Source: Dacryopinax spathularia
Lineage: Eukaryota; Basidiomycota; Dacrymycetes; Dacrymycetales; Dacrymycetaceae
Direction: 5' to 3'
Length of the DNA stretch: 64,000 nucleotides
Assembly: GCA_037974965.1 (NCBI GenBank)
Contig: JBBPFI010000008.1
Coordinates: 1,364,001 to 1,428,000, forward strand
Shown: in pieces, positions 4,953 through 61,274 of the stretch
Position numbering within the stretch: the first letter of the stretch is position 1
Layout of the letters: each line of letters opens with the position of its first letter
Position numbers and translations under genes: made by a program
The notes under the pieces: generated by a model
The model's database searches: none
What the model saw: the letters and a program-made list of their open reading frames with translations, nothing else
Told to the model about the DNA's origin: nothing

Positions 4953-6103
4953 TTATAGCGATAGGTCCTGCTCCAGGACGATGCGGTAGCGGACCTTGCC
5001 GTTCTTAACAGCCTGGACGGCCTTGCCGCAATCCTTCATGGGCATCTTCTCGATCCATGGCTTGAGACCCTTGTCCGCGGCGAGCTGGAGCATCTGGTTC
5101 ATCTCCTCGTGGTTGCCCAAGTGGGAGCCGGCAAGACGGCAGCCATTGGGAAGAAGGTTGAATGCGGTCAACGGCGGGAGGTGTCCTTCCGGGAGGCCAA
5201 CCATGACGAAAATGCCCTCGACGTCGAGCATGCTGAGGTACTCGCCGATCGGGAAGCCTTCGCTGACGTTCAGCGCACAGATGATGATGTCGAACTCGCG
5301 CTGGAACTGCTTCGAGAAACCCTCCTCGGAGGAAAGGACAAACTTGTCCGCACCCATCTTCATCACATCGTCCTTTTTGTTCGGCGAATGGGAGAAAGCA
5401 GTGACCTCGGCTCCCAGGGCGTGCGCGAACATGATGGCGTAGTGGCCAAGGCCACCGATGCCGGCCACACCCACCTTCTTGCCTGGTCCGCAGCCGTTGC
5501 GGACAAGTGGGGAGAAGACGGTGAGACCGGCGCAGAGCATGGAGGCGGCGTCCTCGGACGCGAGGCCATCCGGGATCTTGAATGCGAAGAGCTTGTTGGC
5601 ACGGATGGCGGTGGAGTAGCCTCCCATAGTCTTGGTGCCATCGGGATACTCAGAACCCTGCGTGTAGTCTGTCAGCAAATCGTTCAACGGGATAAGACGC
5701 TGTGTCCACATACATAGGTATCGATCATCTGTGGGCAATAGTTCTCATTGTGGTTCTTGCATGCCTTGCAGTTGTAGCATGAGGCGATCTGCGCACCGAC
5801 ACCAACCCGGTCCCCGACCTTCATCTCAGTGACGTTCTTGCCCACGCGGGTCGCGATGCCGACGATCTCGTGGCCGACGACGAGAGGCGGGGAGATGTCG
5901 CCCCAGCCGGCTGTGATGGTGTGTACGTCGGAGCCGCAGACGCCGCAGTGGGTGATTGCGACCTCGACGTCGTCGTCCGTGAACGTCTTTGGCTTGTAGT
6001 TCATGACGGTGAAGTCTGACCAGTTTTTGGTGTCTGTGACGGCATACCCCTTGAAGTCGTTGTCGGAGAGAGGTTGAACGGATACTGGCTTTGGGTGTGC
6101 CAT
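4953..6103 (-). CDS. Zinc alcohol dehydrogenase, cinnamyl-ADH/ADH6 type (copy 1)
   Basis: This is a medium-chain, probably NADP(H)-dependent, cytosolic alcohol dehydrogenase acting on aldehydes and alcohols. It has two exons (6103-5712 and 5657-4953). The catalytic zinc region is HCGVCGSDVHT and GHEIVG. The structural zinc site is SCYNCKACKNHNENYC, and the nucleotide-binding loop is GVAGIGGLGHYA. GSEYPDGTKTMGGYSTAIRAN and the C-terminal VRYRIVLEQDL are typical of the subfamily. At about 365 residues it is full length. The ATG at 6103 (MAHPKPVSVQ) is preferred over the one at 6196 because a TATA box sits at 6208-6214, which would put transcription start downstream of 6196. Two relatives lie at 42.4 and 47.4 kb. 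The physiological substrate is not known. Confidence 0.9.
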
Positions 6104-7969: not shown

Positions 7970-8828
7970 ATGCGCTCTCGTACCCCCTGCTTACCGTTCG
8001 CCCTTCTCGCCCTTCTCCCAGTCGTGCTCGCCTCTTCCCAAGCATGCACGTACGACGGCCCCGTTCCATCCTTCTCGGACGAGTGCATGCTCGGCACGAA
8101 CCCCATGTGCATCAACCATCAGTGCATGTACGAGTTTTGCGACCAGGGAAGCTTTGCAGAGCACGCGTTTCATCCGGGGCAACTGTTTGACGATAGCCCG
8201 ATGTACTTTTATTGCCGTATGTAACGGGTGGCTTGCTGGGATGAAAGGGACCGGCTAACCAGAACCTATGTACAGATCGTTGCCCTGGAGAGGGGCAGAC
8301 AGCGGATGATCAAGATAGCAATTCAGCGGGCATCGGAGAGTGCTATGTGCCATGTGGACCGGTACGTACCTTGCGACGCGTTCCTGCACTGTTTACTCAT
8401 CTTGCTGCTGCAGGTAAAATGCTACGTGCCCTCACTAGGGGGCACAAATCCAGGAGCGTACCAGACAGGAGAGGGGGTTTGCGTGAACCCAGCAAAGGGG
8501 ATCTGCGAGGAGATGTGCGATGTCGCCGGGTATGCGTTACCCATTTTTGCGCCGGGAGCACGACTGACGTGACCGGAATATCAGCCACATCCCAATACCC
8601 GACGCGTACTCGCTGAACAACACGTGTATTCTCGCATTGGAAGATCATACATTCTTCAAGCGAGATGAACGCTCTGTACCGCTGAAGGAGCTTGACCCGG
8701 AAAGGCGTGCCGCACTGGCACTACGACATGCCGCATCGAGCAACCGAAAACGGAGGAGGCTCGCCAAGTTGGACTCTGCCAGGCTTGTTGAACGGCACGA
8801 TCGTGGACGGCACCAAGGCGACGTGTGA
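7970..8828 (+). CDS. Secreted cysteine-rich protein, four exons
   Basis: A small secreted protein of unknown function. It starts at 7970 with a signal peptide (MRSRTPCLPFALLALLPVVLAS) and continues QACTYDGPVPSF. The frames join over three short introns: FYC to HRCPGEGQTADD, ECYVPCGP to VKCYVPSLGG, and EEMCDVAG to HIPIPDAYSL. The stop is TGA at 8826-8828. At least fourteen Cys are spread over the first two thirds, which suggests disulfides. The tail is basic and Cys-free, with KR and RKRRR sites that a Kex2-type protease could cut. The N-terminal half matches the spacing of the N-terminal module of the repeat protein at 10.1-11.7 kb (LGTNPMC, QCMYEFC, LFDDSPMYFYC). A role as effector or precursor is only a guess. 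Confidence 0.75.
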
Positions 8829-10132: not shown

Positions 10133-11130
10133 TTAGGCAACCTCGACCGTCACCTGGCGCCTGCGAGAAGACGGGGCGGGAGCACGAGCTCGCACCGGAG
10201 GAGGAACGGCTCGGGCTGAGGGCGCGGGAGCGCGCTTCTCGGGAGCAGCATACGGACCGATGGGGCCCTCAGGCTGAGCCTCACGACGACGAGCAGAGGG
10301 AGCAGGGGCGCGAGCCGACGGTTGGCGGCGGTCAATGGTGACATCGGCGGCAACATCAGCGTACGGGCCGACCTGGGCATCTACCTTCAAAGCCTCACGG
10401 CGACGGGCAGACGGGGCGGGTGCGCGGGCGGAGGGCTGGCGGCGATCGACAGTGACATCGGCGGCAATGTAAGGACCAACCTGAGCTTCAACCTTCAGAG
10501 CCTCGCGCCGGCGAGCGGAAGGGGCAGGAGCGCGGGCGGACGGCCTGGGAGCGCGCTTCTCGACGTCGTCGGCGTAGGGGCCCGCTTCGACATCTCGCTT
10601 GCTTACATCGCGCCTGCGAGCGGAAGGCGCCGGGGCACGGGCGGATGGTTGGCGGCGGTCCACGGTAGCATCGCCACGGGCATATGGGCCAACTTGCGCA
10701 TCGTTGCCGTGAGCCTCACGCCTGCGAGCGGAGGGAGCCGGAGCGCGCGCAGAGGGTTGTCGACGGTCAACGGTAACATCCGCTGCAACGTAAGGCCCAA
10801 CCTGAGCCTCAACCTTCAGAGCCTCGCGCCTACGGGCGGAAGGAGCAGGAGCACGGGCAGAAGGCTGGCGACGGTCCACGGTGGAATCGGCGCGGGCGTC
10901 GGGACCGGTCTGACCCTCGATTGGTTGGGCCTCGCGACGACGAGCGGAAGGAGCCGGAGCACGGGCGGATGGGCGGGGAGAGCGCTTCTCGAACTCATCA
11001 GCGTAAGGGCCAACTTGCGCATCGCGCTTGTTCGCTTCACGCCTGCGAGCAGACGGTGCCGGAGCGCGGGCGGAAGGCTGGCGGCGGTCCACAGTGCGGT
11101 CACCCCGGGCGTAAGGACCAGTCTGACCCT
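10133..11130 (-). repeat. In-gene tandem repeats of about 100-115 bp
   Basis: The units coding for PSARAPAPSARRRE plus a variable segment recur about nine times with one degenerate final copy (AVPPPVRARAPAPSSRRR). The constant part is nearly identical between copies. The segment between basic sites varies in sequence and slightly in length. Confidence 0.8.
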
Positions 11131-11734
11131 GAACGAGTTCAGGTTCCCGACGACGAGCAGACGGTGCGGGAGCACGCGCATGCACATCGGCACCGACTAC
11201 CACCGGGCCCGCATTGACATCGGCAGCGACAACGATCGGGCCGGCATTCGCGTCGACATCAGCGGCAACGGTAATTGGACCAGCGATGTCGGCATCGGCA
11301 GCAACATCGATGCCAGCCACGTCAGCGCCGATCGTTGCAGTGATTTGCCGCTTCAGTTCAATGTTCAGACCGGCCACATTCACCTGAATGCCGTTCGTCG
11401 CCTCGTCCAGTGTTGGTTCAAGCTGGCTGATAGTGCTCTGGATGGCATCTGATGGAACATGTCGGCTGCTTTGGACGCACATTGACGAGGAAGGAAACTT
11501 ACTGCAGAGGTACAGGACCGGGCTATTTGGGAACAGCTCGTCACCCGCGAAGGCAACGACAGCATTGGCCACATCGTCGCACGCCGTGTAGACGCACTCT
11601 ACGCCGGTGCAGATGGGGTTTGACCCGAGAGTGCACGCTGCATCGGAACCGAAGGACGAGCAGCTCTGGGACGCCGCCGACGCGATGAGAGAAAGGAGTG
11701 TGGTGAGTGTGACTGCGGAGCGGTGGTAGGCCAT
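10133..11734 (-). CDS. Secreted repeat protein with dibasic sites, candidate peptide precursor
   Basis: A protein of about 533 residues (515 if a stopless 54-nt intron after VLYLC is removed). It has a signal peptide (MAYHRSAVTLTTLLSLIASAASQ) and a Cys module (CTLGSNPIC, ECVYTAC, LFPNSPVLYLC). An Ala/Val/Asp segment with short AADV-AGP repeats follows. Then come about nine units of 33-38 residues built on PSARAPAPSARRRE, a variable stretch holding QVGPYA or a variant, and VDRR or EKR before the next unit. RRR and KR or RR sites frame each variable segment, as in Kex2-processed precursors such as mating factors and fungal RiPPs. One unit has GPD instead of GPY. The ATG lies about 80 bp below a TATA box. 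A repetitive wall protein is the main alternative. Confidence 0.8.
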   Translation of the reverse strand: MAYHRSAVTLTTLLSLIASAASQSCSSFGSDAACTLGSNPICTGVECVYTACDDVANAVVAFAGDELFPNSPVLYLCSKFPSSSMCVQSSRHVPSDAIQSTISQLEPTLDEATNGIQVNVAGLNIELKRQITATIGADVAGIDVAADADIAGPITVAADVDANAGPIVVAADVNAGPVVVGADVHARAPAPSARRREPELVQGQTGPYARGDRTVDRRQPSARAPAPSARRREANKRDAQVGPYADEFEKRSPRPSARAPAPSARRREAQPIEGQTGPDARADSTVDRRQPSARAPAPSARRREALKVEAQVGPYVAADVTVDRRQPSARAPAPSARRREAHGNDAQVGPYARGDATVDRRQPSARAPAPSARRRDVSKRDVEAGPYADDVEKRAPRPSARAPAPSARRREALKVEAQVGPYIAADVTVDRRQPSARAPAPSARRREALKVDAQVGPYADVAADVTIDRRQPSARAPAPSARRREAQPEGPIGPYAAPEKRAPAPSARAVPPPVRARAPAPSSRRRQVTVEVA

Positions 11735-14402
11735 GCTAGCGGATTAGAGAAGGGTGAAAAGGGAGAAGGATGCGAGAGAGGTAGGATGCTGTAAGGACCC
11801 GGGGCGAGAACATCCTTTATAGCACGCATGTAGGTCGATAGCCGATCCTGTCTAGCTCATCACAACAAACATAACCAGACGGTATAGAACGAGGATAAGG
11901 TGAAAGAAAGCATAGGTGACCAGCCATCCCAAGAGACGGGTGTAGAAAGCATCCAACAGGTGTGTAGCAAAGGTTGGTCGAGCAGCCAGACGCGGAGCCA
12001 CAATGGACAATGGACGATTTACCTAACATGGCCCCTGCGGGGAACCTTCCGTCGCTTCTCATTGCTCCCGCGTCTCGCATAATGCACGTGATGGATGGGT
12101 GGGCTGCTGACACTCGTCCTCCCGCCAGTTTCTACCTTCCCATGTCAATATTTACTTGCATTCCTCATCTTAAATCGACTCGTCCGGACCGATCTACACA
12201 CTCGGAAAATCGCGTATCGGTCTGTATGGATTGCATCATTATTATTGTGTACATTCTGGCGCGACGGTTCTGCCTTCCGGCGGACATCCCCGCGTGGCCA
12301 GTTACGACATGTTGCTCTGCTCACCGTTGGTGCCTGTTTGTGCAGTCATCCCTTGCCTCTGGGGACGACCAGCCTATTGCAACGTCACAGATAGGGGATG
12401 CTTTCTTCTGGCTAGGCCCCCTTATACCCGCGGGAAAATGCATCCCGCGCTCGAGACGGCGGTATACACATTTGTGACTACCGTTATGCCCTTCTTCCTG
12501 AGGCAAGCGACGACGCATACTGCCAAGCATTTGCCATCAATGCACAGGCATGTGTGCGAGGAACACACAGTATCTCAGCATTCACTCGGTATCGTTGCGC
12601 CGTTCGTCCGCGCCGTTGTGTTCTACCATCGCGCTTCGCGCATGCCGCTCCTCTCCGCCGCCGACTACGGGAGCCCGAAGCGACCGAGGCGTACGTTGTG
12701 TATGCTCCATCTGACGACATGGAAATGATGGGAATCGGTGATTGAGTACTAGTGTATCCCTCAATGGCACCCGCAAGGAACGAATGGTGGCCGTCGTCCT
12801 CGTCGCCTGGTAAGCCATTCGCGTGTCGATCTATGGAGCACACGACCACTCCAACACTATCTCCGTCCATTTGTAATTGTATGTTCCTGTGCCGCCGACG
12901 GACGCCGGGCCTACCGATGCATCTCACACCTCCTCGCATTCATCACGAACAAAGATGGGATCGATTAGATGGGGGATTACGGTTTCTATACATTACAAAA
13001 CGGCACTCGACACTTTAAGACCATTAACCCTTCCCCCGCCGCTCGAGGTTCCCGCAAGCAGAGGCACAATTACAACATTATACGTATCAGGTCAATTCGA
13101 TTCGATTCGGGCGGCAAGCTGTATACCCCCTGTCGGACATATGGGTTGCTTCGTTGGGAAGTCGGTCATCGCGAGCTCAAGCCTACGCGGCTGGGTTTCG
13201 GCGTAGGTTCTTTGGGCATTCCACCGACGGTCCCGGAGGGTCGCAGGACGCTCTAAGGACAAACCATTAGCCCATTTACCAATGAATTAACGGATGGACG
13301 CACACTCTCGGGCAGGTAGGGCGCTTCTGGTGGTTGTACCGCTCGTCCGCCATCGAATCCGTATGCGCTGCGAGGCGTCGTTATTTCTGCAATACACTAC
13401 ATCAGCGAGGTTCGAGCAACGCATGAGTACACGACGCACCGATATCTTCCTGCTGCTTTGGCGGATCGAAACAGGAGCAAACGGCACCCATTGGGCTAGC
13501 GGCCAGCCAATTCGAGGGTAAGCGATAGGTCTGCCGCACAGACGATCCGCAATCAGTCGATTAAGGGGTCACCCACCAACAAGCCAGCAGGCTCTAGCAA
13601 GCAAGCCAGCAGAACCCCCAACCAGGGGTCTGTGGTCTAAGAGAAGAGTCGAAGAGGGGCAAGGCTGCCAGCAAGAATGAGGGTTTAAGTTCACTTGCCG
13701 GGTGCGGGAGTCGGAGTCGGCGAAGGCGATTGGACAAGTCCACCCCGCTCTATCGTCGAAGGGGCGGAGGTTGTGGCGGTCGCCTGTCGCCTTGTTGCGA
13801 TTGATCGGCAGAATTGATCCCCGCTTCGCCTGCAAGTGCAAGCAACGTCCTGCCCGCCCCGTCCCCTTCTGCATCGGCAAAGGCGGCTGCGAGCGTGGAC
13901 CAGGAGATGCGCATGTGACAGAATACGAGCGTGATGATAAGGCACCTGCCGGCCAACCATTACCGTTTCGAGCTGTTGCCGCTGTCAATTCCGACCAGAT
14001 GCATCGGGATGCTGTGCAGAAGCCAGTCAGCGTTTTCGTGTCATGTAACAGCGCCTGCCAAGCGATTCGGTTCGTGCGTGTTGCGACACGGAAGAGTCGA
14101 AAATGAAACAGCAATCTTCCTGCGGGCCGGTTATGCCATTGCGGTCCAATTCAACTGGTCTTCTTCCGCAACAATCAACTCCGCAATGGCATTACCTAAT
14201 ATTCATCCACTCCCCGCCCAATGGGACACGCATCCGCCGCATGGCTTCCTGCCGCGAAGCCCAGGAGGTCAATCAATCGGGGGCGTATTGAGATGGCGGG
14301 AAAACTTTGATTAGTGTCAAACATACTGATACACGTCGCCCAGGTCGGGGAAATAGGAAAGTACAAGCAGATGAAGACGGATCGCAGCGAGTCATCATCT
14401 CA
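11735..14402. other. Long intergenic, no firm gene
   Basis: A 2.67-kb stretch upstream of the repeat protein and downstream of the His-rich protein. Minus-strand frames at 12484-12939 and 13691-13960 were considered. The second reads TATTSAPST and SPSPTPTPAPGK near its end, which resembles a secreted-protein stalk, but no convincing start or splice set was found. I support no gene here. Confidence 0.45.
11815..11821 (-). promoter_or_regulatory. TATA box of repeat-protein gene
   Basis: The minus strand reads TATAAAG about 80 bp upstream of the ATG at 11734, a canonical element at the usual distance in this window. Confidence 0.5.
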
Positions 14403-17215: not shown

Positions 17216-18444
17216 CGCTGACTAGACCAGGATCGAGTTGGTGAGAGAGTTTCGCTACGAAGTTGCTGGACAAACGCTGGCAAAGATTGTGGGTGTAAAG
17301 TGTTCATCGATTTTCCGCGCCGGGTCTGCAGCACCCGTTCTCACTTTGTAATAGCACTCAAGTTTACGTCCGCAACATGCTAGCTTATACAGAAACAATG
17401 TCCTATATCCATATTTACCGAAAGGCCTCTCTTTCCAAACTCTACAAAGAAGCCCGAACCGATCATGACTGACCGACTTCACCTCGAAATTTCGAACCGC
17501 CGGCGTCCCGCCCGATCAACGCGGCCCGCACTTCGGTCCCTTACGCCCGGGTTACGGTATGCAAAGGAATCCTCTTTTAGACCCTCTCCAATGCCGGTTT
17601 CTTTGCTAATCACCAGCGGTCTATGCACCCCAGGGCAGCGCAACCCTATTGTCCTGCTGTGGTTGTAACCTTATAGAATCAAAAAATCAAAAAACAAAAA
17701 ACGTCGTTGCTACGGGTCGAGCTCTTTTACTTAAATGAGCGAGCCTCTCGCTTTCTTGAGCAATGCTACGAAAGCTCCATGAGGGATTGATTACTTTGTT
17801 AGTTACGCAAGGAGCACGAGGAGTAATCCGTTTCCAAATCCGAATTCCCGGTCGCTCCGAAGCGCCCGAACGTGGGGTTCTTCTCACCCAAACACGTGCG
17901 CCCGAATTCCGTTGGGAATTCAGGGTCCAATGGGGGCGCTCCTTTGTGGGTGCGGTATTGGACTGTGGAACGTGCACGACTCTGATCCCCAAAAAGCTCG
18001 AGATGGCATAACTAGGGGACATCAAGAATACCTCCTCACGGGGGGAGACGGTGAGGAACATGGGGGACGGCAGTTACGGTTGTCTTTATGGCGTGCAAGG
18101 CTTCATGGGCGGTGATTGGCCGGATGGTTGGGCGAGGTAAGGGAGCCACGGCGGTTGTCATCCTCCGCTTCCAAGCGAACAGTAGTAAGTATGCCGAGAA
18201 GAGCGTGGTCCCCTATAGTTGAAGAAAGTCAGTGTGATTGTCCGAAAGCGGGACAGGGTCAATACAACGGCGAAAAGAAGGGGTCCCACATTGACGGGGA
18301 GGAGGAGAACGTGGCCGACTGGACCTTATAACCCATCAAACGGTCCTAGCCCTCTCCCCGTCGTCCTTTCCCCCTTTTGACGTGCTCGTACGACCTCGGA
18401 GCAAGTCATCCAAAAGGTCGGACGACGAACAAGGCAGCCAACAG
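17216..18444. other. Divergent intergenic region
   Basis: This lies between the phosphatase (minus) and the betaine-lipid synthase (plus). It contains an A-rich run near 17680-17701 and a TATA-like TTATAAC near 18326. Frames of up to about 125 codons overlap on both strands without motifs. Confidence 0.5.
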
Positions 18445-21230
18445 ATGGCACCCTCAACCGCAACCGTCATCGTCGCCGCCACTTCAGCAGTTGTCGCCGC
18501 TCTCTACGCGTACACACCCCTGGGCGAGCACTTCGAGGCCCGTTTCCTGCTCCCTATCCCTCTCATCCTTCTCCTCCTCTCTTTCACCTCCTTCAAATCG
18601 ACTCTCAAGGCTGCATGGCTCTTCTGCTACAACTGCTTCCTCCGCCCTCTCGGTCTACACTCGGACCAACAGTCTAGGCTCGACTCGTTTTACACCGGCC
18701 AGGCAGAGGTATACGACGCAACCCGCAATGGTCTCCTCCGGGGCAGGCGCACAATGCTCAAGTTGTCCATCGCACACCTCAAGCTCCTCCGTGCCCAGGC
18801 CACCAACCCAAACAAGCGTCTGGTCTGGGTCGACATTGGCGGCGGGACAGGCTGGAACATCGAAGTTATGTCGCAATATGTCGACCTCAGCATATTTGAC
18901 GCCATCTACGTGATCGATTTGTGCGAGCCGTTGCTCAAAGTCGCGCGTGAGAGAGCGGAGCGCAACGGGTGGAAAAACGTCCACTGTTTGTTACAGGACG
19001 CGTCGGGCTTCGTCTTGCCAGAGTGGAAGCAGCTGAGGATCAACCCGAGAGGGAGCGTCAGCTTCGTCACTTTGTCCTACTCACTGTCGATGATCCCGTC
19101 CTACTTCACATTACTGGACAGAATCGAACAGGTTCTCGACCCGGAGGACGGCTTGCTAGCAGTGGTGGACTTTTACACGGCGGCGAAGGAGGCGTCGGAG
19201 CACGAGAAGGCCATTGGAGGGGGAGGTAAGAAAGTAGGCTGGTTCTCCCGTTGGTTCTGGCAGGTGCATGTCCAGCCCCATCTGTCCTTGAATCTTGCAG
19301 CTAATGGCGCTTTGTGCAGATCTGGTTCGACTTTGACCATGTTCACCTCAGTCCGGGGAGGCGCGACTACCTAGAGTACCGCTTCGGCACGATCAAGTCC
19401 TATAACGGTCGGAACAAATTCGTGGTGCCTTTCATCGTTCGCATGTGCGCAGATATGCGCTATCCTTTTCAGTTCCATGCATATCTGACCTCATTCGGCA
19501 GCCCTTACTATATCTGGCTTGGCACTCCCCGTTCTCGGTCCACGGAGCGGAACCGTCATGCATTCGAAGTGGAGGGAGGGAACACTGTCGGCAACCTTTC
19601 GCTACCCGGCACTCCGCTGGCTCCTACGCGCCCGACCACACCGCTTTCTCTGATCGGCAAGGAAGCTGGTGAAGAAGAGGATATGGAGGTTGAGGAACTT
19701 AATTTGGGCTTGTCTCGTGCTGCTGCAGTCGCCGCCGCCCATGATGAGATGCACTCGGTCTTGGGCGAACGAAAGGAAGGCGAGAAGGAGGGCAGGAAAC
19801 ACATCGTGTTGGACGTGATGCCGCCTCTGAGCTCCTTCCACTACCAGATCAAGCACGTAAGTGCGGTCCTTCCCTTATTTGCAGTCAGGTTCTGAGCATA
19901 TGCATTAGCCATGGCGCCTCCCTTACTATGAAGCCAAGATCCACAAGGCCTTCCGGACATTCGTGTACTCCTTCACCTGGGAAGACCCCGAAGAGGATAT
20001 GCGCCACCTCCAGCTCTCTCGGGACGACTCCATGTTTGTAATCACCTCAGCCGGCGACAATGCCCTGCATTACGCTATCGCAGCCCAGCCCAAGCGGATC
20101 CACTGCGTCGACATGAACCCTTGTCAAGGCCACCTGATGGAGCTCAAACTTGCCGCAATTCAGTCGCTCGAATATGAAGACTTCTTCAAGCTGTTTGGTG
20201 ATGGGAAGCATCCCGAGTTCCGCAAGCTGCTCGACTCGGCTATCTCGCCCTATCTATCCTCCAACGCGTACACGTTCTGGCGGATCAACTCCAAGGCTTA
20301 TTCGTCTTCCTTCTACCGTCGAGGCTATTCCGGCTGGGCACTTCGCCTGGCTAAGTGGGTCTTCTCCTTCGCTGGCGTGAGTCAGTATGTCGACCAGCTA
20401 TGCGAGTGCGACACCGTCGAGGAGCAGGACAAGATTTGGCGGGAGAAGATCAGGCCGGTGATCTTGAACAAGACCTTCGTCGATCTCGTCCTCAGTAACC
20501 CAGTATTCTGCTGGAATGCACTAGGCGTACCCATGAACCAGAGGGCGATGTTTCTTAACGAGGGCACGGCCTTCGAATTTGTGAGGGACACACTCGACCC
20601 GATCGCAAAGACTGCCGTACTCAAGCATGGAGCTTATCATTTCCTTCTTGTGAGTGTGCATCATCCTCCCGAATCTCTTGTGCACTCCTGACATGTGATC
20701 CCAGTGTCTCCTTGGCCACTATACCCCTGACTCATGCCCGCTGTACCTGACTCGTGACGGCTTCAACGCGCTAAAAGCAAACGACGGCGCCCTCATGGAT
20801 GCGTTCCGTCTCCATACGGACTCCATCACTAAGTACATCCTTCCCTTCCCCTCATTGTGCGTAGTTGGGTTCACACCTTCTGCAGTGTTCTGCGCGGCCT
20901 GGCGCCGGACTCCATCACCCGTGCAGTCATCATGGATCACCTTGACTGGTTCGACCCCGGTTCTGAAGACGCCAGGGATGAAATATCGGCTATGTATCGT
21001 GCCCTCGCCCCAGGTGGGATGGTCTTCTGGCGCTCGGCAGCCAGGCAGCCGTGGTACTGCGCGATGTGCGTCTCTTACACCGTATCCGCCCACCCATATT
21101 CTTACTTATGCGATGCAGGTTCAAGGAACAAGGATTTGACCTTACACCTCTCGGCGTGCGCGAAGGGCCGGGAAAGGCCATTGATAGGGTGAATATGTAC
21201 GCCTCCTTCTGGCGTGCGGTAAAGGTGTGA
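18445..21230 (+). CDS. BTA1: Betaine-lipid (DGTS) synthase, Bta1 type
   Basis: A bifunctional enzyme making diacylglyceryl-trimethylhomoserine, a phosphate-free membrane lipid, in the ER. After an N-terminal hydrophobic stretch (FLLPIPLILLLLSFTSF), a methyltransferase domain shows the SAM motif VWVDIGGGTGWNIE and DAIYVIDLCEPLL. The second half, similar to bacterial BtaA (DUF3419), has FTWEDPEEDMRHL, MFVITSAGDNALHYA, IHCVDMNPCQGHLMELKLAAI and LGVPMNQRAMF. It ends EGPGKAIDRVNMYASFWRAVKV, stop at 21228-21230. Domain order (methyltransferase, then BtaA) is that of fungal Bta1. Five or six introns interrupt it. One joins IVR to IPYYIWLG, and another joins IKH to PWRLPYYEAKIHKAF. The chosen ATG gives MAPSTATVIVAATS. 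Low phosphate usually induces such genes; no regulatory site was recognised. Confidence 0.92.
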
Positions 21231-29477: not shown

Positions 29478-30810
29478 TTAGTCCTCAGCCCTCTTCACCG
29501 GCATCTTGTAATACACCCTCGTCCCCTCCGGGAACGCGTTCGGTCCTGGCGGGGCGGCCAGCCCGTTTCTCTTCTCATGCTCCTTAATCTCTTCCTCACT
29601 GCGAAGATAAACACTGTCAACCGACTCGGGCGGGAGGCCTTTCGCAGCCGCGGCGGCGATCATTCGCTCGAGCTCTTCTTGTACGCGAGCTTTCTTGAAG
29701 GCTGCATCGAGCGGTAAGCGTGCGATTTGCGAGGGAGGGGTGGTGGTAAAAGGGGAACAGGGGGGAGACGTAGGCTGGACCGGGGGACATACTGTAGTTC
29801 CGCGGGTAGTACACTTTGCGGGGGGCGGTGATGTGCCATTCTGACGCTGGAATCCGCTCTTTGCCAAGCTTGCGCAGGATATACAGCTCGCACAGGCTCT
29901 GCAAGCACCAGTCAGCCCGTAGACGAAAACAAGGGTGGCGAATAAGCATACGAAATCCTCCGGGTTCTTCCTATCAAAATCATACGGATCCTTCAGATTT
30001 ACATGCGGGTTGGTAATAACCCTCGGCTTCCTCAGATGGTTCTTGCTCGCCGTGTGCGGCAGGAGTCCATGCAGAATCAACGTATCTCCCTTCTTCGCCG
30101 TAACCTCCGTGAACACCTTGCAATCTTTCACGTGGGCGAAGAGCTCGTCGAAGGGTGGATCAAGCCCCGCTGGGTGTGCGTACAGGTACTTGACGATGCC
30201 GGTGATGCCGTCCTCGCAGAGCCAGGTTCCGCCTCCACGGGGTTCAATGTCGGTGAAGCAGTGAATTATGGTGAGGGCATTGCCAGAGCTGTCCAGGAAT
30301 TGACGGTACCAGTCATTGTCGCAGTGCCAGCCGCCGGCTTCTTGTGGAGTTTGGTCGTGCTGCGAGCGAGCGGGGTCAGCGGTTTTTGAATGAGCGATGG
30401 AAGGGGAAGAAGGCGTACATCACGCCAGTATTCCGTTCCACTATTGATTATGAACTGGTCCCCGTGGTGCGTCTCCCTCTCTGGGTCGATCCTCTCCACC
30501 CCGCCAACTATCTCGACCATCGCCTTCCACGCATCCGGGCAGAACTCTACCATCACATGTCAATCAGCACTTTTGAGAGGCAAGTATAACGCGACACCGC
30601 ACCGGCGACAGGCACCTCCCTATGCCTGGGCAGCTTGACATACTCTTCCGTCCAAGTAGAGACATCTTTCTCGACGAAACCCAGGCGAATCCAGACGTCT
30701 GCCATCCATGCGTCCAAGTATTGCGGGTTGATCGCATTGGGTATGCGGAGCCAACCATGCTCCAAAAAGTGCTCGCGCTGTTCCGGAGTAAGGTATTCGT
30801 ATTTTACCAT
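29478..30810 (-). CDS. Phytanoyl-CoA dioxygenase (PhyH)-like protein
   Basis: A probable Fe(II)/2-oxoglutarate dioxygenase. The start at 30810 gives MVKYEYLTPEQREHFLEHGWLRIPNAI. The second part shows PDAWKAMVEIVGGVERID and HHGDQFIINSG. The iron ligands appear as WHCDND (H-x-D) and, distally, ILHGLLPHTASKNHL with Arg in RKPRVITNPHV as a likely 2-oxoglutarate contact. LTIIHCFTDIEPRGGGTWL is the typical core strand region. The tail (KKARVQEELERMIAAAAAKGLP to YYKMPVKRAED) is charged. Three or four introns separate the pieces. The substrate is unknown; fungal relatives vary widely in activity. Confidence 0.82.
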
Positions 30811-31624
30811 GTTTCCTACTGCTCTTCGCTTGGAGGCTTAGACTTGGCTTTCTGAAATGTGAACTCGGTAGTTCGAGGTAGTTGGCTCAAGTCAAGCAGG
30901 AGCTCACTGCCGCGGTCTATTTTGAGAGCAGGGTTGATATAGCTGGCAAGCAATGTCCCCTCCACAGCAAAGAAGCAGGCCATTTCTCCGATGTACTGTC
31001 GGGCATGTTGCCGTCCTCAGCATCACTCGTCCGCCCATACACGCAGCTCGGGCCGATGTGGCGAAACGAATGGTGCGGGGAACCGCGCGGGGAAAACGAG
31101 GAAGCCCAAAGTGACGTCGGAGTAGGGTTGCCTTTTTGGGTCACGGCGGTGATCGGTCCGGCCGAGCTTGCTGAGAGTTCTGTACATCCGGGCGACAACA
31201 TCCACTTTTCACTGAGAAAATATATCTTTAAGATATATTTAAGCATCGTCTCTGCTCTGGGAGATGATACATTCGGGCGCGGATGGCATGGTGTTTTTTG
31301 CCCTGAGTGCGCTCCACGGCCCACTTGCGACAAAAAAGTGTACATTCCAAACCATCTCACCCTCGTCAGTAGCACAAACCCCCAAAGCCTCTTCCCTCTC
31401 ATGCATACCCCAACGCGTCACTCCAAAGCACCCGGAGCTCCGCCCCCAAAAGCACATATAAACCCCTCCTCAAGCTCCATGAAGCGTGCATCGGTCCTTG
31501 CTCCTCCCCACGCATGGAGGAGCGACCTCTCCCCGAACTCCCCCTGACGAACGAGGCGACCCGCAGTCGCTCCCGTCTACTCAGCCAAAAGAGCATACCA
31601 GACGGTGCCGGCCGCCCACCGACG

Positions 31625-31674
31625 GGGTATATGCGCCCTATCTCCCGTGAAGAAGGGATGGGGCGCATATACCC
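31625..31674. repeat. Inverted repeat with 13-bp perfect outer arms
   Basis: GGGTATATGCGCC at 31625-31637 is the exact reverse complement of 31662-31674. The inner bases continue to pair with few mismatches, so about 20 bp could form a stem around a GTGAAGAA-type loop. A weaker copy follows 120 bp downstream. Confidence 0.75.
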
Positions 31675-31743
31675 GGCTCTGTGGGATGCCTGCACCCTCG
31701 TGCCTCGTCTTCGTGCCCCAGCAGTGCGTCGCCCGCCCACAGC

Positions 31744-31800
31744 AGCGTATATGCCGCCCATCCCCCCTAAAGAAGAGATGGGCGAGATATACCTGCCGCT
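31744..31800. repeat. Second, imperfect hairpin of the same type
   Basis: The arms GTATATGCCGCCCATC and GATGGGCGAGATATAC pair with mismatches around CCCCCTAAAGAA. The layout is the same as at 31625-31674. Confidence 0.55.
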
Positions 31801-32218
31801 GTGAGCGGTCTGCGCGCGCGCGCGATGCCTTCGTTCGTCAGCATCAGGCTGTCCGGCCCGTCTCTTTAGTCGTCCTCTCCCGTCGTGTGCCGCACCCCGC
31901 CTGGCAGCATATATGCGCCCTCCGTAAGCGGGCGGAGATGCTCTGACAGACTGGGTAGGGTCGACCTGTCCCCACAGCGGCATCGTGCGATCTTGTCTGG
32001 CGCAGCTGCGTGTGATGTCTGCGTGAGATCTGGATTCCGAGCCTTGTTTGGCGCACCGTCCTCTCCTTAGGCCGTACGTATCCATGCCGGGCAGATTGAC
32101 GCATACCACGGAATGTCGCACCTCTCGCATTCACCAGGAACAGTGAATGGGATCGTGTCCCTTGCCTAGACCGACCGTGTGAAGCCAGGATCCGTCCGAG
32201 CTAATCAAGCAGGAGGGT

Positions 32219-32390
32219 GCAGAGCATAGAAAGGCGCACATATGCCTCTCAGGGAACGGTGGACGTCGCACGTCGCACCGGTCATTCACGCAAAGATATG
32301 CGGGGTCGATGTCGCGTTGCTTGGCGTCTCTTCCCCTTCGTTTCTCGGCTTTCGCGCTGCGTGGCCGTTCATCACGTCGATACTTTCGCG
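32219..32390. repeat. Dispersed repeat, copy A
   Basis: This resembles 34276-34451 along its whole length by eye: a GCAGAG..ATAGAAA start, GCGCA-ATATGC-TCTC, GGAACGG, GCGGGGT, TTGGCGT.TCT, TTCCCCTTC, and TTCATCACGT near the end. No protein is conserved in any frame I compared. Confidence 0.6.
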
Positions 32391-33540
32391 TTGTATTTGT
32401 AGCATCGCCAATAAGGCAAGCCGCGAGCAGGCAGTTCTGACGCATTGTCATTGGCTTGCGGCCAGCAAGGGAGTGGAGGCTGAACGACCGTCGGCAGGTT
32501 TGGCGTGAGCTGGAATATAGACTATCGAGATGGCTGCGTATATCAGCTGGTCTCTTTGAACTGAGCCCTAGGAGGATCCGATGGGTCATGCCCCCTCAAT
32601 GACGACTCGAGAGCGTACTAGTAACAGATTGCCAGGGACTCGCGGACCGTCTGCCCCATTCCGGGTCGCTCTCAGCCAGGGGGTCGTTCGGTCGGTGTTG
32701 GGAGGCGTGTGATCCAAAAATACCCTTTGACGATCCATAATTATGCACCGCCCTTCTGCCTCCCTCACCGCCCCGGGCATCGCAACCTTTTCCCCCCAAA
32801 ATCCAAAAACAGCGTAATCATCCGCGTGCGCGGCTCTTATGTCCCTTCGAGTATTTAGGGAACTCGGATGACTATTTTTAGACGCTGGGTAGGCTTGTAA
32901 TGCTGTTAGGCTGTTGGAGGGCAATGGCGCAACCTTCTCTCTCTCTCTCCTTAACTCATCGGCACCATCGCTCAGCTCATCGACCTCCTCCCCGCCCTCG
33001 CCGTCCACCCATCATCCCTCATCACCCGGTCCTCCTTGCCCTCGTCGAACCTATTCTCCCGCAACCCATCGCAGTCTATCCACCCTTCCCGTCCAAAACC
33101 CCAAATCTTCCCACCCACACCCAACGAAACCGCAATCTTCCAAATCACATCACCAATCCAATAATAGCACACCCACGAGACGGTGCGAGAATAGCACCAG
33201 TCTTGCGCAGCACCCAGCAATCACTTGCAGGCTCGTAGAAGGTGAAGGGGATATATTTACCTCAACCTCTTTCGCCTGAGTGGGCCGTTACTGCTGGATT
33301 ACGCACGGGTTGGAGCGAGGGGACGCATATAGCTGCGGTACTGCTGGACGTTGTCGCCAACCACCGACGCTCGGACGCTGGATGAGGGCTGCTGCCCTTC
33401 CATCATAAACCCGCCAACGAGCAGTCATCCTACATCCCCTTAGTGTACCGACCGGCGAGCTACCCGTGGCATCGGTCGACCGATTAGAGGTTGAACAGGG
33501 AAGCGATAAAAGCTATAAGAGACAATAAGAGCGGCGAGGT

Positions 33541-34224
33541 ATGCCGGAGCCAGCAGTCTTTATCGTCGTTGCGATCCTGGCAGTAGTGTGCGCTGCCATA
33601 CCCTTCCGTACGTCCCTTCCTCCCGTCCCTCACTGGACCATACACCCCCTTCCTCTCTTGTATACCCCCCGTTCGCCCCGACTGACGGTCTCCGCAGTAT
33701 ACTGGCACATCAAATCCCGCCGCGCGCGCTCCTACGCCGATTCCACCCCACCAACAACCACCTCGACGCCCACCATGCGCGGACTAGAAGCAGCAGTCCT
33801 CCGAGGGCCCGACAAAGACCCGCCTGGGATACGAGTACCGGGAGCAGCCGGTATGGTGGGTGTGCGCTCTGTACCTTCGGATGGCGCAGCGCTGCCTGGC
33901 ATGGGGAGGAGAACGGACTCTACAAGCGGGCTGAGCGGGACGACCTACGTTCCTTCGACCTCATCGCCACGTCCGTCGACGTCGACTACGAGGCAGTACC
34001 CGTCTCGTCCCGCGAGTGCGGTACTTCCACCACAGGCATCAACATCACGCCCTCGAAGAGGTGTCCAGCAAGGGTTGGGTCGAGCAGGCGGGGTTCACCC
34101 CGCTGACGTGCATAGGTCGCGGACAGCTGCAGGGGCGGGCATGGGGCAGAGAGGGGAGCTTGAGGCGCCGCCTGCGTATGAGGAGGTCGTGGATGAGGGA
34201 GGCGAGATACTAGGCGGGGGATAA
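33541..34224 (+). CDS. Single-pass membrane protein with C-terminal PPxY motif
   Basis: A protein of about 197-227 residues and unknown function. It opens MPEPAVFIVVAILAVVCAAIPF, one membrane segment right at the N-terminus, followed by YWHIKSRRAR. A long Ser/Thr/Pro/Arg-rich tail ends with EAPPAYEEVVDEGGEI. The PPAY motif is the kind recognised by the WW domains of Rsp5/NEDD4 ubiquitin ligases, so an adaptor that recruits the ligase to a membrane is a reasonable inference. A 90-nt stopless intron (33608-33697) probably separates IPF from the YWHIK segment. No neighbour suggests a pathway. Confidence 0.65.
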   Translation: MPEPAVFIVVAILAVVCAAIPFRTSLPPVPHWTIHPLPLLYTPRSPRLTVSAVYWHIKSRRARSYADSTPPTTTSTPTMRGLEAAVLRGPDKDPPGIRVPGAAGMVGVRSVPSDGAALPGMGRRTDSTSGLSGTTYVPSTSSPRPSTSTTRQYPSRPASAVLPPQASTSRPRRGVQQGLGRAGGVHPADVHRSRTAAGAGMGQRGELEAPPAYEEVVDEGGEILGGG

Positions 34225-35378
34225 GCGATGGGACGTGTCCGGCTCCAAGTTGAGGGGAAGTCGGAGGAGGAGTGCGCAGAGATATAGAAAAGATGCGCAT
34301 ATATGCGTCTCGAGGAACGGCAAAAGTCGCGCAGGACATTACGCCAAGAGACGCGGGGTGAGCTTGGCGCGGCTCTTGGCGTTTCTCGCCTGCTTCCCCT
34401 TCCCGTCGCGGATTTCGCGCGGTGTGGTCATTCATCACGTTGACGCTCTACTACTCCTGTTTGTCTTTTTGTTTAGGTCTGATGATGTTGTTCCCCATGA
34501 TGTTTTTATTGCGATTGACTTGTATTTGTCATGAAATGATGTGGTGACGTGATACTGGCGTGTTTGACTCCTGCCTTAGACAACTTAGTCAAATGAGAAT
34601 GAATGAGCGAACGTCTCGTTTCCTCGAGTTGATCCGGTAGTTTCGGATACTTAGCGCCGTATTGTAGACGGACATTCACTCGTCTTGGTAGAAATAGTGT
34701 GTTATGATTCTACGAGTGAGTCAGGCCAGCGCTACATGACATTCGTGCTGCCTTGTAGGTTCTCTTCTCCGTTAATGCAGCCCTTGCAGCTGCACAAGAG
34801 AGCCGTTTACCTCCGAGGGCTAACGACCATCGTGCCGCCCTCCAACGAGCTGAACAAAGGGGCTGTGTCGTCGTGTCGCCGCAGCGAAGACCCATCCCAG
34901 CGGCGCTAACCGTCCTGGCCTCCTATGCCCGCTCTGGCTCCGTCCAACTCGCTCATTACAGTCTGCTCATTGTCCGCGCCTGCTCTGCGTCTCTCCAATG
35001 GCTCTGAACTGGCTCAAAGGCAGCCTCTTTGCATAATTAAGGAGGGACGCACAAAACCTCTGACGTGTCTCACCACGTTCGGCGATCGCTGGCCGCTCAT
35101 GCGGATGAGAGAGGAAAGAGTATTAGAGCAATGAGCGAAGGAAGAGCCAGCATGGTCCTTCCCTTGGGCCAAACCCCGTACGCCCGCGACGTACAGGACT
35201 ACTGCTGGCCTCGGACTGGCTTGACTTCGACCTTGAGGCTCGTATTGCTGGCTCCTTGGTTCGGGGTACTTAAACCTTGCTATCTCGCTGGTCTTCCTTC
35301 ATATTCTTGCATCACTTCACACTCTGCGACAGCCTCTTTACACTGCCCGACGACCTGGAACGCCCAGAACTAGGACTC
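34225..35378. other. Intergenic with repeat copy B
   Basis: This contains the second copy of the dispersed repeat (34276-34451) and the promoter of the next gene. Other frames are short. No RNA gene was recognised. Confidence 0.55.
34276..34451. repeat. Dispersed repeat, copy B
   Basis: The partner of 32219-32390. It includes a palindromic GATGCGCATATATGCGTC at its left side, which echoes the hairpin arms at 31.6 kb. Confidence 0.6.
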
Positions 35379-36194
35379 ATGCCCAAGATGCCTGTTTGGA
35401 AGTTGCACCGCAAAAGACGGTTCGACCTCCTTCCTGAACCTAGCCCGCCTCCTTTTGCCCATCCTTCGTCCACAACTTTGGAGAAGAAGCACGCGCATCC
35501 CCTTCCCAGGCCGGCATCTCCTTCTACCCGGGCAAAGCTGTCCAAACCTGCCGCGCCTGTTGGACCGGGGACGCTCTACTGGCGTCGTCGGGCACGGAGA
35601 GCTGCACTGGCAAAGCAGGCCGACATTCGCTCTCCCTCGCCTTCCTCTTCGCCGCCGCGCCTACCAGAATTGCCGCCCTCCCCGGAGCTGTCCGACTGCG
35701 ACCTCTTCTGCCCTCCCCCAAGCGCACGCCGCACCTACCGAGCTCGCTTCATCGACCTCGACGAGCTCTTTTCTCAATTCCCCACTCCGTCCTCCCGAGC
35801 CGCGGAAGGTGCCGCCTCATGGTTCCGTTTCCAAGCCCAGCTCGCCGCCCAAACCCTCATCCTCGACCTCTCCATATGGGTGCGGCACGACTGCACCGCC
35901 GCGGAACACGCGGCTCGGATGTGGCGAGAAGATCTTCAGCGCTGGGTGGACGGGTTCGAAGAGTGGGAACTGGGTGGAGAGATGTATTGGGAGGTTGTGA
36001 GGGTTGCGGGGGAGCTGCCCAGGGTGAGGCGGTGTCCGGGGGAGGGGAATAGGGGAAAGTTGTGTCCAAATGATGTCGATCCGACCGAGGGGAGTGGGAG
36101 TGGGAGCGAGAGGGGGAGCAGTAGGAGCTCGGAGGAGGAGGACTTGCTGGAGACGCCGCCGTTCACACTATATCCGGGCTCTGGGTCGGATTGA
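35379..36194 (+). CDS. Hypothetical Pro/Ser-rich protein
   Basis: A single-exon protein of about 271 residues that I do not recognise. The first ATG gives MPKMPVWKLHRKRRFDLLPE, a basic start. A Pro/Ser/Arg-rich, probably disordered part follows to about residue 115. The middle has a more ordered stretch, TYRARFIDLDELFSQFP and ASWFRFQAQLAAQTLILDLSIWVRHD, then AARMWREDLQRWVDGFEEWE, which look like amphipathic helices. The end is Gly/Ser/Glu-rich with SSEEEDLLETPPF. The open frame extends upstream to 35277 only without an ATG. Confidence 0.55.
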   Translation: MPKMPVWKLHRKRRFDLLPEPSPPPFAHPSSTTLEKKHAHPLPRPASPSTRAKLSKPAAPVGPGTLYWRRRARRAALAKQADIRSPSPSSSPPRLPELPPSPELSDCDLFCPPPSARRTYRARFIDLDELFSQFPTPSSRAAEGAASWFRFQAQLAAQTLILDLSIWVRHDCTAAEHAARMWREDLQRWVDGFEEWELGGEMYWEVVRVAGELPRVRRCPGEGNRGKLCPNDVDPTEGSGSGSERGSSRSSEEEDLLETPPFTLYPGSGSD

Positions 36195-36484
36195 CACGAA
36201 TATCTTACGCATACATACTTCTTTGTTTAATCGCCCTTGTTGTTCAGCGATCTTGTCGTCTTTGTATATCTTGTAGGGTGTTTAATTTCTTGCATGTTCC
36301 TCTAGCAAGTCAAGCCGATCCTACGCAAAGCACGAATAATATGCGCGTGTTGCAGCAGCGGACACGACTGGACTACTAACGCGTCTTGTAATGTTTGGTC
36401 AAGAGGGTTACGTAAGCAACATTCCTGTCTGTCGGCGTCAGGGTTTTGCGCCGTGTCGTGACTGCAACCATATGCCTCAAAACC

Positions 36485-37412
36485 ATGTCCTCCTCCTCCG
36501 CCTCAACCTCCTCCAGCCCCGCCTCGCCCTCATCATCATCAGCATCTCATGACCCCCTATCATCAAAGGACCAAACAGCCTTCGAACGCTGGCGTCGGTC
36601 CGCCGCCTGGATCACAGGTATCGGCCTCAGCCCGGAAGACGCAGCTGCCAGGGAGGAGGAGATGCTCATGAAGAAACGGGCTTACGAGTGGGATCAGTGC
36701 GAGAGGTGGAAACAAGAGTTGATGTGGAATAGTGCGCTCCCTTCCCTTTCTTTCCTCGGCCTGGTACACGGCCGGACTTTGGAAGTTGGCTTGGCGCGGT
36801 GTTGTGCTCACGCGTACGCAGGCCCAGCAATAGTATTCATGCGGAAACACATGGCCCTCCTTGGCCACCCCGTCCCCCCCGAACAACTCCTCTGCGAGCC
36901 TTGCGAGGCTCTTTCCCGCTCTGGAGGGACGGGACCAGATGGGAGCATCATTATCTGTCAGGATAAGGTGCTCGAGAAGCAGAAGATGGAGGATACGATC
37001 ATGCATGAGCTTGTGCATGCTTATGATCGGGTTAAGTTCAATTTGGACTGGTCGAACTGTAGGCATCATGCGTGTACTGAGGTGCGCTGCTTGTCCTCCG
37101 TCCTGAACAACCAGTGCGGATGCTGACCCACTCCTCCCAGATCCGAGCCAACAACCTCTCCGGCGACTGCAAATGGAACCGAGAAATAATGCGCGGTTTC
37201 TTCTCTTTTACAAAACAGCACCAAGCCTGCGTCCGCCGACGCGCGTTTCAAAGTCTCATGCAGAACCCGTGTTGTGCTGATCCGGACGTCGCGCAGAAGG
37301 CGATCGATGAGGTTTTCGAGAGCTGTATTAAGGATACGAGGCCGTTTGATGAGGTGCGGGTGATTCGGTCCTTGTTTGGGGTACCTTCTGACGTCCGTTA
37401 CAGGTCTTCTAG
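36485..37412 (+). CDS. ATP23: Mitochondrial inner-membrane metalloprotease Atp23
   Basis: A zinc metallopeptidase of the intermembrane space that processes Atp6 and helps assemble ATP synthase. A Ser-rich N-terminus leads to AFERWRRSAAWITGIGLSPED. An intron joins LMWNS to PAIVFMRKHMALLGHPV. CEPCEALSRSG precedes IIICQDKVLEKQKMEDTIMHELVHAYDR, which carries the HEXXH catalytic site. NCRHHACTE is followed after an intron by IRANNLSGDCKWNREIMRG, the family motif. The last exon closes RPFDEVF with TAG at 37410-37412, as in relatives that end RPFDEIY. Paired Cys are kept. The start at 36485 gives MSSSSASTSSS. Confidence 0.9.
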
Positions 37413-38359
37413 ATGGGTTGGGTTTGTAACCGTAGAGCCATTGGATATCCTGCTATCGTGCATAGAGGAGGAAAAGATGGCGCGTCATGTTCATTATATT
37501 ATACGCGCAACGCCACTTGGACTTATTGCATACCGTCATCAATCCTCCTTGCTGCTGGTCCAAACAGGTATCGCTACGTCCCGTACGATCCTCGTGCCCA
37601 CCAAGGGGACAAACGGACCTGGGCGCCAACAACCGAACCCCCCCTCCGGATCCCCACCTTTCCGGTTTTCCAGCTGCACGAGGCCTACCATCACTAGCGC
37701 AGCCTCACCTCTCTTCCTTCCCAAAAGCGCAGGGGTACCTCCCCGCCCCATCACAGAGATTAGATGACCTCCCCTCCTCTCCTGCGCCAACGACTCGAGC
37801 ACCGCACCCAGCGAATCGGCATCGCGTCTAACAGAACTGCGGGCCACGTGACTCGGAAGTGCTTGGCCGTGCGGAGCGGAGAAACGCAGTGAAGTCCCTT
37901 ACGCCTTGACTGAGAGACGGCTTGCAAGGCGCGGCGATGTATCACCTTCCAGAAGCGTAGGTTGGACAAACATGACACTTAATATCGATAGTATCCATGG
38001 ATCCACTGCAAAAAAAGAAACAACAGGCAGGGCGCAGCAAGTCAACTAGGTACCGCAGCATATTGTCGTGAGAAAAAGAGTCAGCTAGTATTAGTCTCAT
38101 CCACATGCTGCGAGCACTGCAAAAGGCGTAGCACGACGACCCTGTCTCCCGACGTGTTCATTGAGGTTAGACATGACAAGCCGCAAGGGTTATAAGCCCG
38201 CTATTCTTGGCGGGATGGATGTCAGAAACAACTTGACAGCCTTCCCGCCTACTCCCAAGACCAGAAGTCGACACATCTACCTGCTTAACCTCTTACCTCG
38301 CTGTCCTCAGCTTTGATTGACTGGACGTACTCACCGAACTACACACAACACCATAAACG
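37413..38359. other. Intergenic, no gene supported
   Basis: This lies downstream of ATP23 and upstream of the monooxygenase. Overlapping frames at 37413-37847 lack motifs and start codons in good context. Confidence 0.55.
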
Positions 38360-39658
38360 ATGACCTCCAAACCGCAGCATGTCATTATCATCGGTGCAGG
38401 CCTGGGCGGTACGGCCCTCTCCATTGGCCTCGCCCTACAAGGCATCAAATCCACGCTCTACGAAGTCCGTCCCACGCGAGGCACGATCGGCGGCGCGGTC
38501 CAACTCGCCCCCAACGCCCTGCGCATCCTCGACCGCCTAGGCGTCTACAGCACAATCCAGTCGCAAGGCTTCAACTTTGACAAAATACGGTTCATATCCG
38601 AAAAGGGATCTGTAATAGGCGACTTCTACTCGGGCGGGAAGGAGAGATATGGCTATCAAGCGCTGAGGATCAAGCGTGAGCTTCTGCTCAAGGCCCTACA
38701 TGAGCGAGCGCAGGAACTGGGAGTGAGGATCGAATTTGGGAAGAAATGCGTCTCTGTCTCTGAGCATGAGGAGGGCGCGACGGTTCAGTTCGCCGATGGC
38801 ACCAGCGCTACGGGCGATTTGGTAGTCGGGTTCGACGGGATTCATTCCCTCGTCCGGCCACACGTCACTGGCCCCTCCACGATTCCGAGATATACGGGGT
38901 TCACAGCAGTCGGCTTCGCTGCCCCTAAGAGCGCAATCCGCTTCCCCAGCTCGCAGTACGAGATGCCATGCATGATCACTGGCCGGAAGGGGAACTTCGG
39001 GATGATGCCCCGTGATCATGAGGGGGAGGAGGTGGGCTGTTTCTCGACGTGTGAGATGAAGGAGGATTTGGGCAGGGAGGGGTGGGCGAGGTGGGCGAAG
39101 GAGGAAGCGCTGCCGTGGGTTAGGAAGGTGCATCAGGATTGGGATGATGTGAGTCCCGCTCCATCCCCTGATGTGAGTTATGATGGCTGATGAGGTTATG
39201 ATGGATCGATGTAGCCGGTCAAGAGCATGCTCGCCGCCCTCGACCCCTCCGACATCCACATCTGGCCCACCTACGAGCTTCCACCCGCCCCGCGCTGGCA
39301 CACCGCCCGCGTAATAATAGCAGGCGACGCAGTGCACGCCATGTCTCCCCACGCCGGGCAAGGAGCAGCCCAAGCATTCGAAGACGGTGCTCTCCTCTCC
39401 CGAGCTCTCTCCCTCCTCTCCTCTTCCTATCCCCTAGCCCGAGCGCTGGATAATTGGGAGAAAAGGAGAAGAGAGAGGTTTGAGATTGTGCTGGGCTTTA
39501 CCAAGCGTAGCAGTTCTACGAGGAGGCAGACGAGTGCGTTGGGGGAGGTGGTGAAGGAATGGGGGCTGTGGGCGTTTTTCTTGATGAAAGGGCGTGAGAG
39601 TTCGGGTGTCTTGAATGATTATGATGTCGAGAAGGTGGATTTGATGGGGGAGGCTTAG
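38360..39658 (+). CDS. FAD-dependent monooxygenase, salicylate-hydroxylase-like
   Basis: A flavoprotein aromatic hydroxylase-type enzyme using NAD(P)H and oxygen. The N-terminal dinucleotide fold is VIIIGAGLGGTALSIGLALQGI. The family motif that contacts both FAD and NAD(P)H appears as GDLVVGFDGIHSLVR (DG motif), and the second FAD motif is RVIIAGDAVHAMSPHAGQGAAQAFEDG (GD motif). One intron, from about 39149 to 39214, separates QDWDD from PVKSMLAALD; its in-frame stop shows that it must be removed. Length is about 410 residues, normal for the group. The substrate is not predictable; fungal relatives hydroxylate salicylate, kynurenine-like or polyketide rings. Confidence 0.85.
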
Positions 39659-40147
39659 ACTTGGAACCTCCCTTTGCCTTCGCCGTCCTTACTTTTGCCA
39701 TGGGTTCAGTGGCTTTCTTGTGATGATCAGCTTGACAAGACTGTTATGTATTCATTGATCTCTGCTTATATAGTTAATCGGATTCGGATCTCTTCCTGTT
39801 CCTGGATGGTCGCCTGATCAAACTACATTTTCAGGCTTTGTATGCGCGAGCAGCGCACAGGTTCCATTCCCCATCAGCGAACCGATACCAACTAATGACC
39901 TTGACGGTCGTGTTGTACAATAAAACAGAGAGCGCTCTGGCTCCATACATTTGGAGAGGTACGGTAATGCTGTTGTTACACGATATAAGAGAGACGACGA
40001 CATGATACGGCGTATGTATTTTTATCAAGTTTTTCATATTTCTGAAGAGGAAGAAAACGATAACCGGGACATGAAAGGAAATGGAAGAAAGGAGCTCGGA
40101 ATCGGCATATATGCGCCTCATGGCGCTCGAATCCCAAACGTCGTTGC
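39659..40147. other. 3'-to-3' spacer
   Basis: A spacer between the converging monooxygenase and zinc-finger genes. A GGCATATATGCGCC near 40103 repeats the hairpin-arm sequence of the 31.6-kb region. No gene was seen. Confidence 0.5.
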
Positions 40148-45524: not shown

Positions 45525-46429
<905 letters not shown>

Positions 46430-61168: not shown

Positions 61169-61274
61169 GGGTATAGAAACGGTCGAGGGGGAAAAGAGAG
61201 AGGGTGCAGCAAAGTTGAGTGAAAATGGAAAGGCCGGGGCGAGTATGACGGTCGTGGTTCAGAGGCGACTGCCT

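Follow-up and report, generated by a model that had tools for sequence, protein, structure and literature searches.

A predicted KEX2-processed repeat precursor of Dacryopinax spathularia in which an invariant block alternates with diverging GPY segments

In this study we describe a gene of the basidiomycete Dacryopinax spathularia that, judged by its sequence, clearly belongs to a known class of peptide precursors in fungi but is itself uncharacterised. The encoded protein is most probably a KEX2-processed repeat protein (KEP) with two kinds of product, one of them invariant and the other diverging. Zero residue change combined with near-saturated synonymous change indicates that selection has been strictest on the constant block; the variable GPY segments nevertheless look the obvious cores.

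Results

The gene lies on the minus strand at positions 10133-11734 of a 64,000-nucleotide stretch of contig JBBPFI010000008.1, here called the window. The open reading frame that the earlier note had placed at these coordinates is present there with the array layout it described and comprises 533 aa when left unspliced. As first read, however, it likely crosses an intron that was overlooked earlier (11449-11502, minus strand; 54 bases, in-frame, phase 1, GTAAGT...CAG). We call this intron because the neighbouring gene at 7970-8828 has a homologous six-cysteine exon followed, in its own model, by a phase-1 intron at the homologous position. Once the predicted intron is removed, the gene encodes 515 aa from ATG to stop, a protein rich in A, R and P, and splicing takes out a seventh cysteine, leaving six that all lie inside the N-terminal module. 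A TATAAA (11816-11821, minus strand) found as a motif match 87 bases upstream of the ATG might belong to a core promoter. The plus strand carries an antisense open reading frame (10220-11452), which we rejected as a gene, its length being expected by chance from the codon usage of the KEP: the longest antisense open frame on the spliced sequence has 449 codons, a length equalled or exceeded in 28% of 2000 trials in which the KEP was recoded synonymously.

At its N-terminus the protein has a likely signal peptide (residues ~1-23, 11666-11734, minus strand), called by hydropathy from the hydrophobic stretch VTLTTLLSLIA, with the cleavage point placed by eye. Simple sequence tests and hydropathy gave no later membrane-like segment (the best later 19-mer averages 1.44 in Kyte-Doolittle hydropathy), no N-glycosylation motif and no GPI-like tail. 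The signal is followed by a module of six cysteines without a CC pair (residues 25-77, 11504-11662, minus strand), which recurs in the neighbouring gene at 36% identity over 61 aa (E 2e-12) and whose cysteine spacing pattern has only two occurrences in a six-frame scan of the window. Both a signal peptide and a cysteine module had been proposed in the earlier note; the module is borne out here, and the signal peptide is likely. The cysteine modules match no Pfam family; the spliced N-terminal part gave none at E up to 1, a hydrophobin domain included. Likewise, the KEP matched no Pfam family, since the two weak hits obtained with the unspliced protein as a whole (E 0.06 and 0.23) lie far below their cut-offs, and a PDB sequence search returned nothing meaningful (best E 0.19). 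AlphaFold models were poor, with a mean pLDDT of 52 for the cysteine exon alone and 42 with its neighbour.

After the first KR site comes a region (residues 112-175, 11156-11347, minus strand) with repeats of the GP(I/V)(T/V)V(A/G)ADV type and no dibasic site between them. It leads into the Kex2-site array (10157-11155, minus strand), made up of nine variable GP(Y/D) segments and a constant block in alternation. The block consists of Q, SPR or APR followed by PSARAPAPSA and RRR, and its last copy has diverged. A portion of this array (10276-10892) is also detected independently by TRF, with a period of 108 and a score of 376. Beyond residue 22 the spliced protein has 22 [KR]R+ sites and would be cut into 23 pieces, whereas 2000 composition shuffles gave a mean of 8.6 sites and a maximum of 16, in agreement with the units bounded by RR, RRR or KR that had been claimed. 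The array itself would yield 20 fragments of 3-22 aa, 18 of which measure 11-22 aa.

According to the part of PMC6339444 that sets out its survey rules, a KEP is recognised by a signal peptide with no later membrane segment, at least four fragments after KR/RR cutting, at least three similar fragments, and a smallest motif that multiplied by its copies covers at least 15% of the protein. Here we counted the 23 pieces mentioned above, among them six identical QPSARAPAPSA, eight block copies and nine related variable segments; the motif coverage is 17% by hand count (11 aa x 8 = 88 of 515 aa). X-Ala or X-Pro directly after Kex2 sites, the STE13-type feature of KEPs, was found as well.

By their pattern these X-Ala/X-Pro starts are the STE13 signature of alpha-pheromone-like precursors. 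They open 18 of the 20 array fragments and 13 of the 15 distinct ones, where 5.3 would be expected; 13 was reached in 0 of 20000 per-fragment shuffles, a test that overstates independence since the array fragments are related by duplication. The two distinct fragments without the signature are DVS and DVEAGPYADDVE. Fragments from the constant block, including its diverged last copy, carry four to six such pairs in the register set by the cut. When the register is shifted by one residue, 19 of the 20 array fragments no longer start with such a pair, and the remaining fragment starts with just one. The linkers before the eight exact blocks (Q, SPR or APR) differ in length by two residues, and since their length is always odd the dipeptide register is kept.

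The constant block PSARAPAPSARRR is present in eight exact amino-acid copies, with RAPAPSARRR occurring nine times and RAPAPSSRRR once. When the 28 copy pairs are compared at 13 positions, none of the 364 residue pairs differs, as against 226 of 364 codon pairs (62%); had every codon been drawn independently according to the codon usage of this gene, 70% would be expected. Nei-Gojobori-type counting gives a pS of 0.63 and a pN of 0.016, the latter arising solely from stepwise paths between arginine codons. All eight DNA versions of the block are distinct and 69-87% identical; with synonymous sites this close to saturation, recent duplication or gene conversion was rejected as the source of its constancy. 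On this codon evidence the block is old and selected as protein. Hence it is more likely to be released as a peptide than to be a mere spacer.

All nine variable segments contain GP, in eight cases as GPY and in one as GPD. The earlier note had counted about nine segments with GPYA; the number nine holds, but exact GPYA is present in only six of them. In each of the nine the first residue is acidic, an acidic residue stands before the closing cut and the closing [KR]R is kept (RR in six, KR in three), its second Arg being fixed. Two segments have an internal KR that splits off a tripeptide. For the variable segments the same type of counting gave a pS of 0.67 and a pN of 0.33, and among the 406 codon pairs that encode the same residue, 205 are different (50%, as against 58% expected). 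By this measure the variable segments are similarly old to the constant block and have been diverging in sequence within limits at their acidic ends and GP. The computed MH+ of the predicted variable peptides is 1873.991 for LKVEAQVGPYVAADVTVD, 1888.006 for LKVEAQVGPYIAADVTVD and 1154.500 for QVGPYADEFE (1137.473 in its pyroGlu form); for the candidate products of the constant block it is 669.368 (RAPAPSA) and 1035.522 (pyroGlu-PSARAPAPSA). An RGD tripeptide occurs in two variable segments (11087-11146 and 10658-10717, minus strand), probably by coincidence.

Discussion

A plain processed peptide, as put forward in the earlier note, agrees with what we found: codons are scrambled yet dibasic sites are kept, X-Ala or X-Pro follows the cuts, the N-terminus is hydrophobic and no membrane-like segment comes later. 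We propose that the precursor would enter the secretory pathway and that a Kex2-type protease would cut it after RRR, RR and KR. The basic ends might then be trimmed by a Kex1-type carboxypeptidase, and a STE13-type dipeptidyl aminopeptidase might take off leading EA, EP, QP, SP, AP and similar pairs. The expected products would be nine variable peptides, exemplified by LKVEAQVGPYVAADVTVD, together with a constant peptide in eight copies; the cut at the first KR would release the six-cysteine module as a mini-protein of its own. We envisage the peptides as linear secreted signals, possibly directed to the fungus itself or to other organisms. DPP-IV-type enzymes disfavour trimming before proline, and when trimming was simulated with such a proline stop the linkers Q, SPR and APR all converged on RAPAPSA, in 8 of 8 copies. 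Under a plain rule without the proline stop the constant block was reduced to PSA in eight copies, which counts against a second product. If the N-terminal Gln were cyclised first, pyroGlu-PSARAPAPSA might result in 6 of the 8 copies. STE13-trimmed and pyroGlu KEP peptides have been detected by mass spectrometry in mushrooms or KEP-expressing Pichia, by the account in PMC9769878.

It is possible, though we rather doubt it, that the variable GPY segments are the only products and that the constant block serves as a spacer, its ladder of X-Ala/X-Pro pairs being destroyed by STE13-type trimming. The block does read QP-SA-RA-PA-PSA in the Kex2-cut register, with four to six pairs per copy, and plain-rule trimming leaves only PSA in the eight copies; repeated STE13-cleaved dipeptides are described for alpha-pheromone precursors and some basidiomycete KEPs in the relevant part of PMC6339444. 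However, a spacer of this kind should tolerate any X-Ala/X-Pro pair, yet RAPAPSARRR is unchanged in nine copies, and 226 of 364 codon pairs of the block differ while none of its residues do. The block is moreover closed by its own RRR cut instead of being fused to a product, and the reluctance of DPP-IV-type enzymes to trim before Pro speaks against its complete destruction. Because the whole block is invariant, we favour a second released product over a spacer. More speculatively, and with little confidence on our part, such a precursor with two kinds of product might send two secreted messages: diverging GPY peptides facing other organisms, and the fixed heptapeptide RAPAPSA as a conserved ligand, similar to a hormone, that the fungus itself would perceive. 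RAPAPSA would be reached from three linkers via trimming halted before proline, and the precursor might have arisen when the six-cysteine exon shared with its neighbour gained a repeat array behind the phase-1 intron.

A dikaritin-type RiPP, in which the Tyr of GPY(A/V/I) would be cross-linked by a UstYa-family oxidase encoded elsewhere, seems improbable to us. It would suit the presence of Tyr in 8 of the 9 cores, and according to the figures given in PMC7329392 Tyr is commoner in KEP repeats near a DUF3328 gene (65.6% vs 38.2%). Against it, a Pfam scan of positions 1-29802 in all six frames, with hits considered up to E 0.01, detected neither UstYa nor DUF3328, in line with the earlier statements that no UstYa-type oxidase was seen nearby and that a modified RiPP is less certain than a plain processed peptide. 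The same scan did recover an eL28 gene and an ADH gene, the latter in two halves; it had no UstYa positive control, short exons could hide a match, and to the left of the gene it reaches only the 10.1 kb up to the window end, beyond which an oxidase gene could lie. Three HxxHC motifs, which we take to be the UstYa motif, occur in the window, none with UstYa-like context by eye. That the protein stays uncut as a Pro/Ala-rich wall or matrix protein, its basic pairs serving for binding and not for cleavage, we consider very unlikely. Repeat-rich wall proteins are common in fungi and the composition, rich in A, R and P, would be suitable, but the dibasic sites set the X-Ala/X-Pro register, and in the closing pair K and R replace each other at the first residue only, both of which point to cleavage rather than to a charge pattern; a GPI-like tail is missing. 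Surface-active peptides assembling at the hyphal wall, as known for Ustilago Rep1, are barely plausible here. Rep1 is indeed a repeat precursor cut by Kex2, and in Hum3 repeats with Kex2 sites are linked to a hydrophobin domain (both as presented in PMC4617103). The array fragments of our precursor, however, measure 3-22 aa, whereas those of Rep1 are given in the same source as mostly 35-53 aa and amphipathic. According to PMC6339444, Rep1 lacks a STE13 signature, and the cysteine module here, with its six cysteines and no CC pair, has no Pfam match. A KEP with two kinds of product remains our preferred reading.

Several known systems resemble this KEP in part. The Agaricomycetes KEPs Coprinopsis 490115 and Pleurotus 1091723, as portrayed in PMC9769878, have a signal, which is likely here too, and likewise dibasic-bounded repeats, STE13-type X-Ala/X-Pro and, on some products, an N-terminal Gln. 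The Pleurotus and Lentinula peptides reported there as detected end in AADW, and most of the detected 490115 repeat peptides end in W. In contrast, and again compared by description, the cores here contain GPY, in one case GPD, and have Asp or Glu as their last residue, and two fragment types alternate, one of them invariant, behind an N-terminal six-cysteine module. The two-motif KEPs of the Le Marquer survey (PMC6339444), which we liken by description, also have more than one repeated fragment type per precursor; by the counts given there, 77 of 1193 surveyed KEPs have two motif types and 2 have three, and KEPs with a STE13 signature are recorded from basidiomycetes. Ustilago maydis Hum3 and Rep1 share Kex2-site repeats with our precursor, and Hum3 also couples a cysteine-bearing domain to them; in the description of PMC4617103, however, the hydrophobin domain of Hum3 comes after the repeats, whereas the six-cysteine module stands before them here, and repeat length differs. 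Dikaritin precursors of the UstA type combine a signal peptide, likely in our precursor too, with Kex2-bounded repeats that have a core Tyr, unlike our gene in that positions 1-29802 hold no UstYa-family match. Ascomycete alpha-pheromone precursors have the same Kex2 and STE13 layout, but by eye we saw no alpha-pheromone-like core here, and our cores vary within the precursor.

A role as mating factor was the weakest part of the first interpretation, because basidiomycete mating pheromones are expected to be of the a-type and made otherwise than from such precursors, as stated in passages of PMC9769878 and PMC6339444. Relatives were confirmed neither in viral_contigs (8 pattern-matched stretches) nor in genome_contigs (42); this is weak evidence, since the query was the unspliced ORF and the collections are not fungal. 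The comparison of codons with residues between repeats might be applied to the thousands of catalogued KEPs, where it could find the selected fragment without relatives.

The neighbouring gene might give hints on the origin of the precursor. We modelled it from the sequence with four exons (7970-8828, plus strand; 230 aa; introns of 59, 52 and 55 bases). It has a signal-like N-terminus, and its exon 1 contains the six-cysteine module as in the KEP. Directly after the last cysteine of the module the model places the phase-1 intron, and read-through would meet a stop at 8224. Behind this common intron the two genes diverge, with a cysteine-rich part of another kind in the neighbour and the pro-region and array in the KEP. 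The C-terminal part of the neighbour carries KR, RR and RKRRR sites and no repeats, and the gene may represent an unrepeated type of Kex2-processed relative. In the pro-region of the KEP, 33-base repeats detected by TRF (11177-11249, minus strand) encode uncut GP(I/V)(T/V)V(A/G)ADV-like units. These resemble, by eye, the core GPYVAADV, and the variable cores may descend from them. A reasonable history would be that the six-cysteine exon was duplicated, in either direction, and that the array then grew.

Elsewhere in the window, APH was the single family returned when about 49001-64000 was scanned with Pfam in six frames, and 29803-49000 was covered through eight selected open frames only. Two zinc alcohol dehydrogenases, which match identical Pfam families, lie ~42 kb apart (4953-5744 and 47441-48169, both minus strand). 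At 18295-20691 (plus strand) a methyltransferase domain and DUF3419 are found on neighbouring open frames, a combination that we presume to belong to betaine-lipid synthases.
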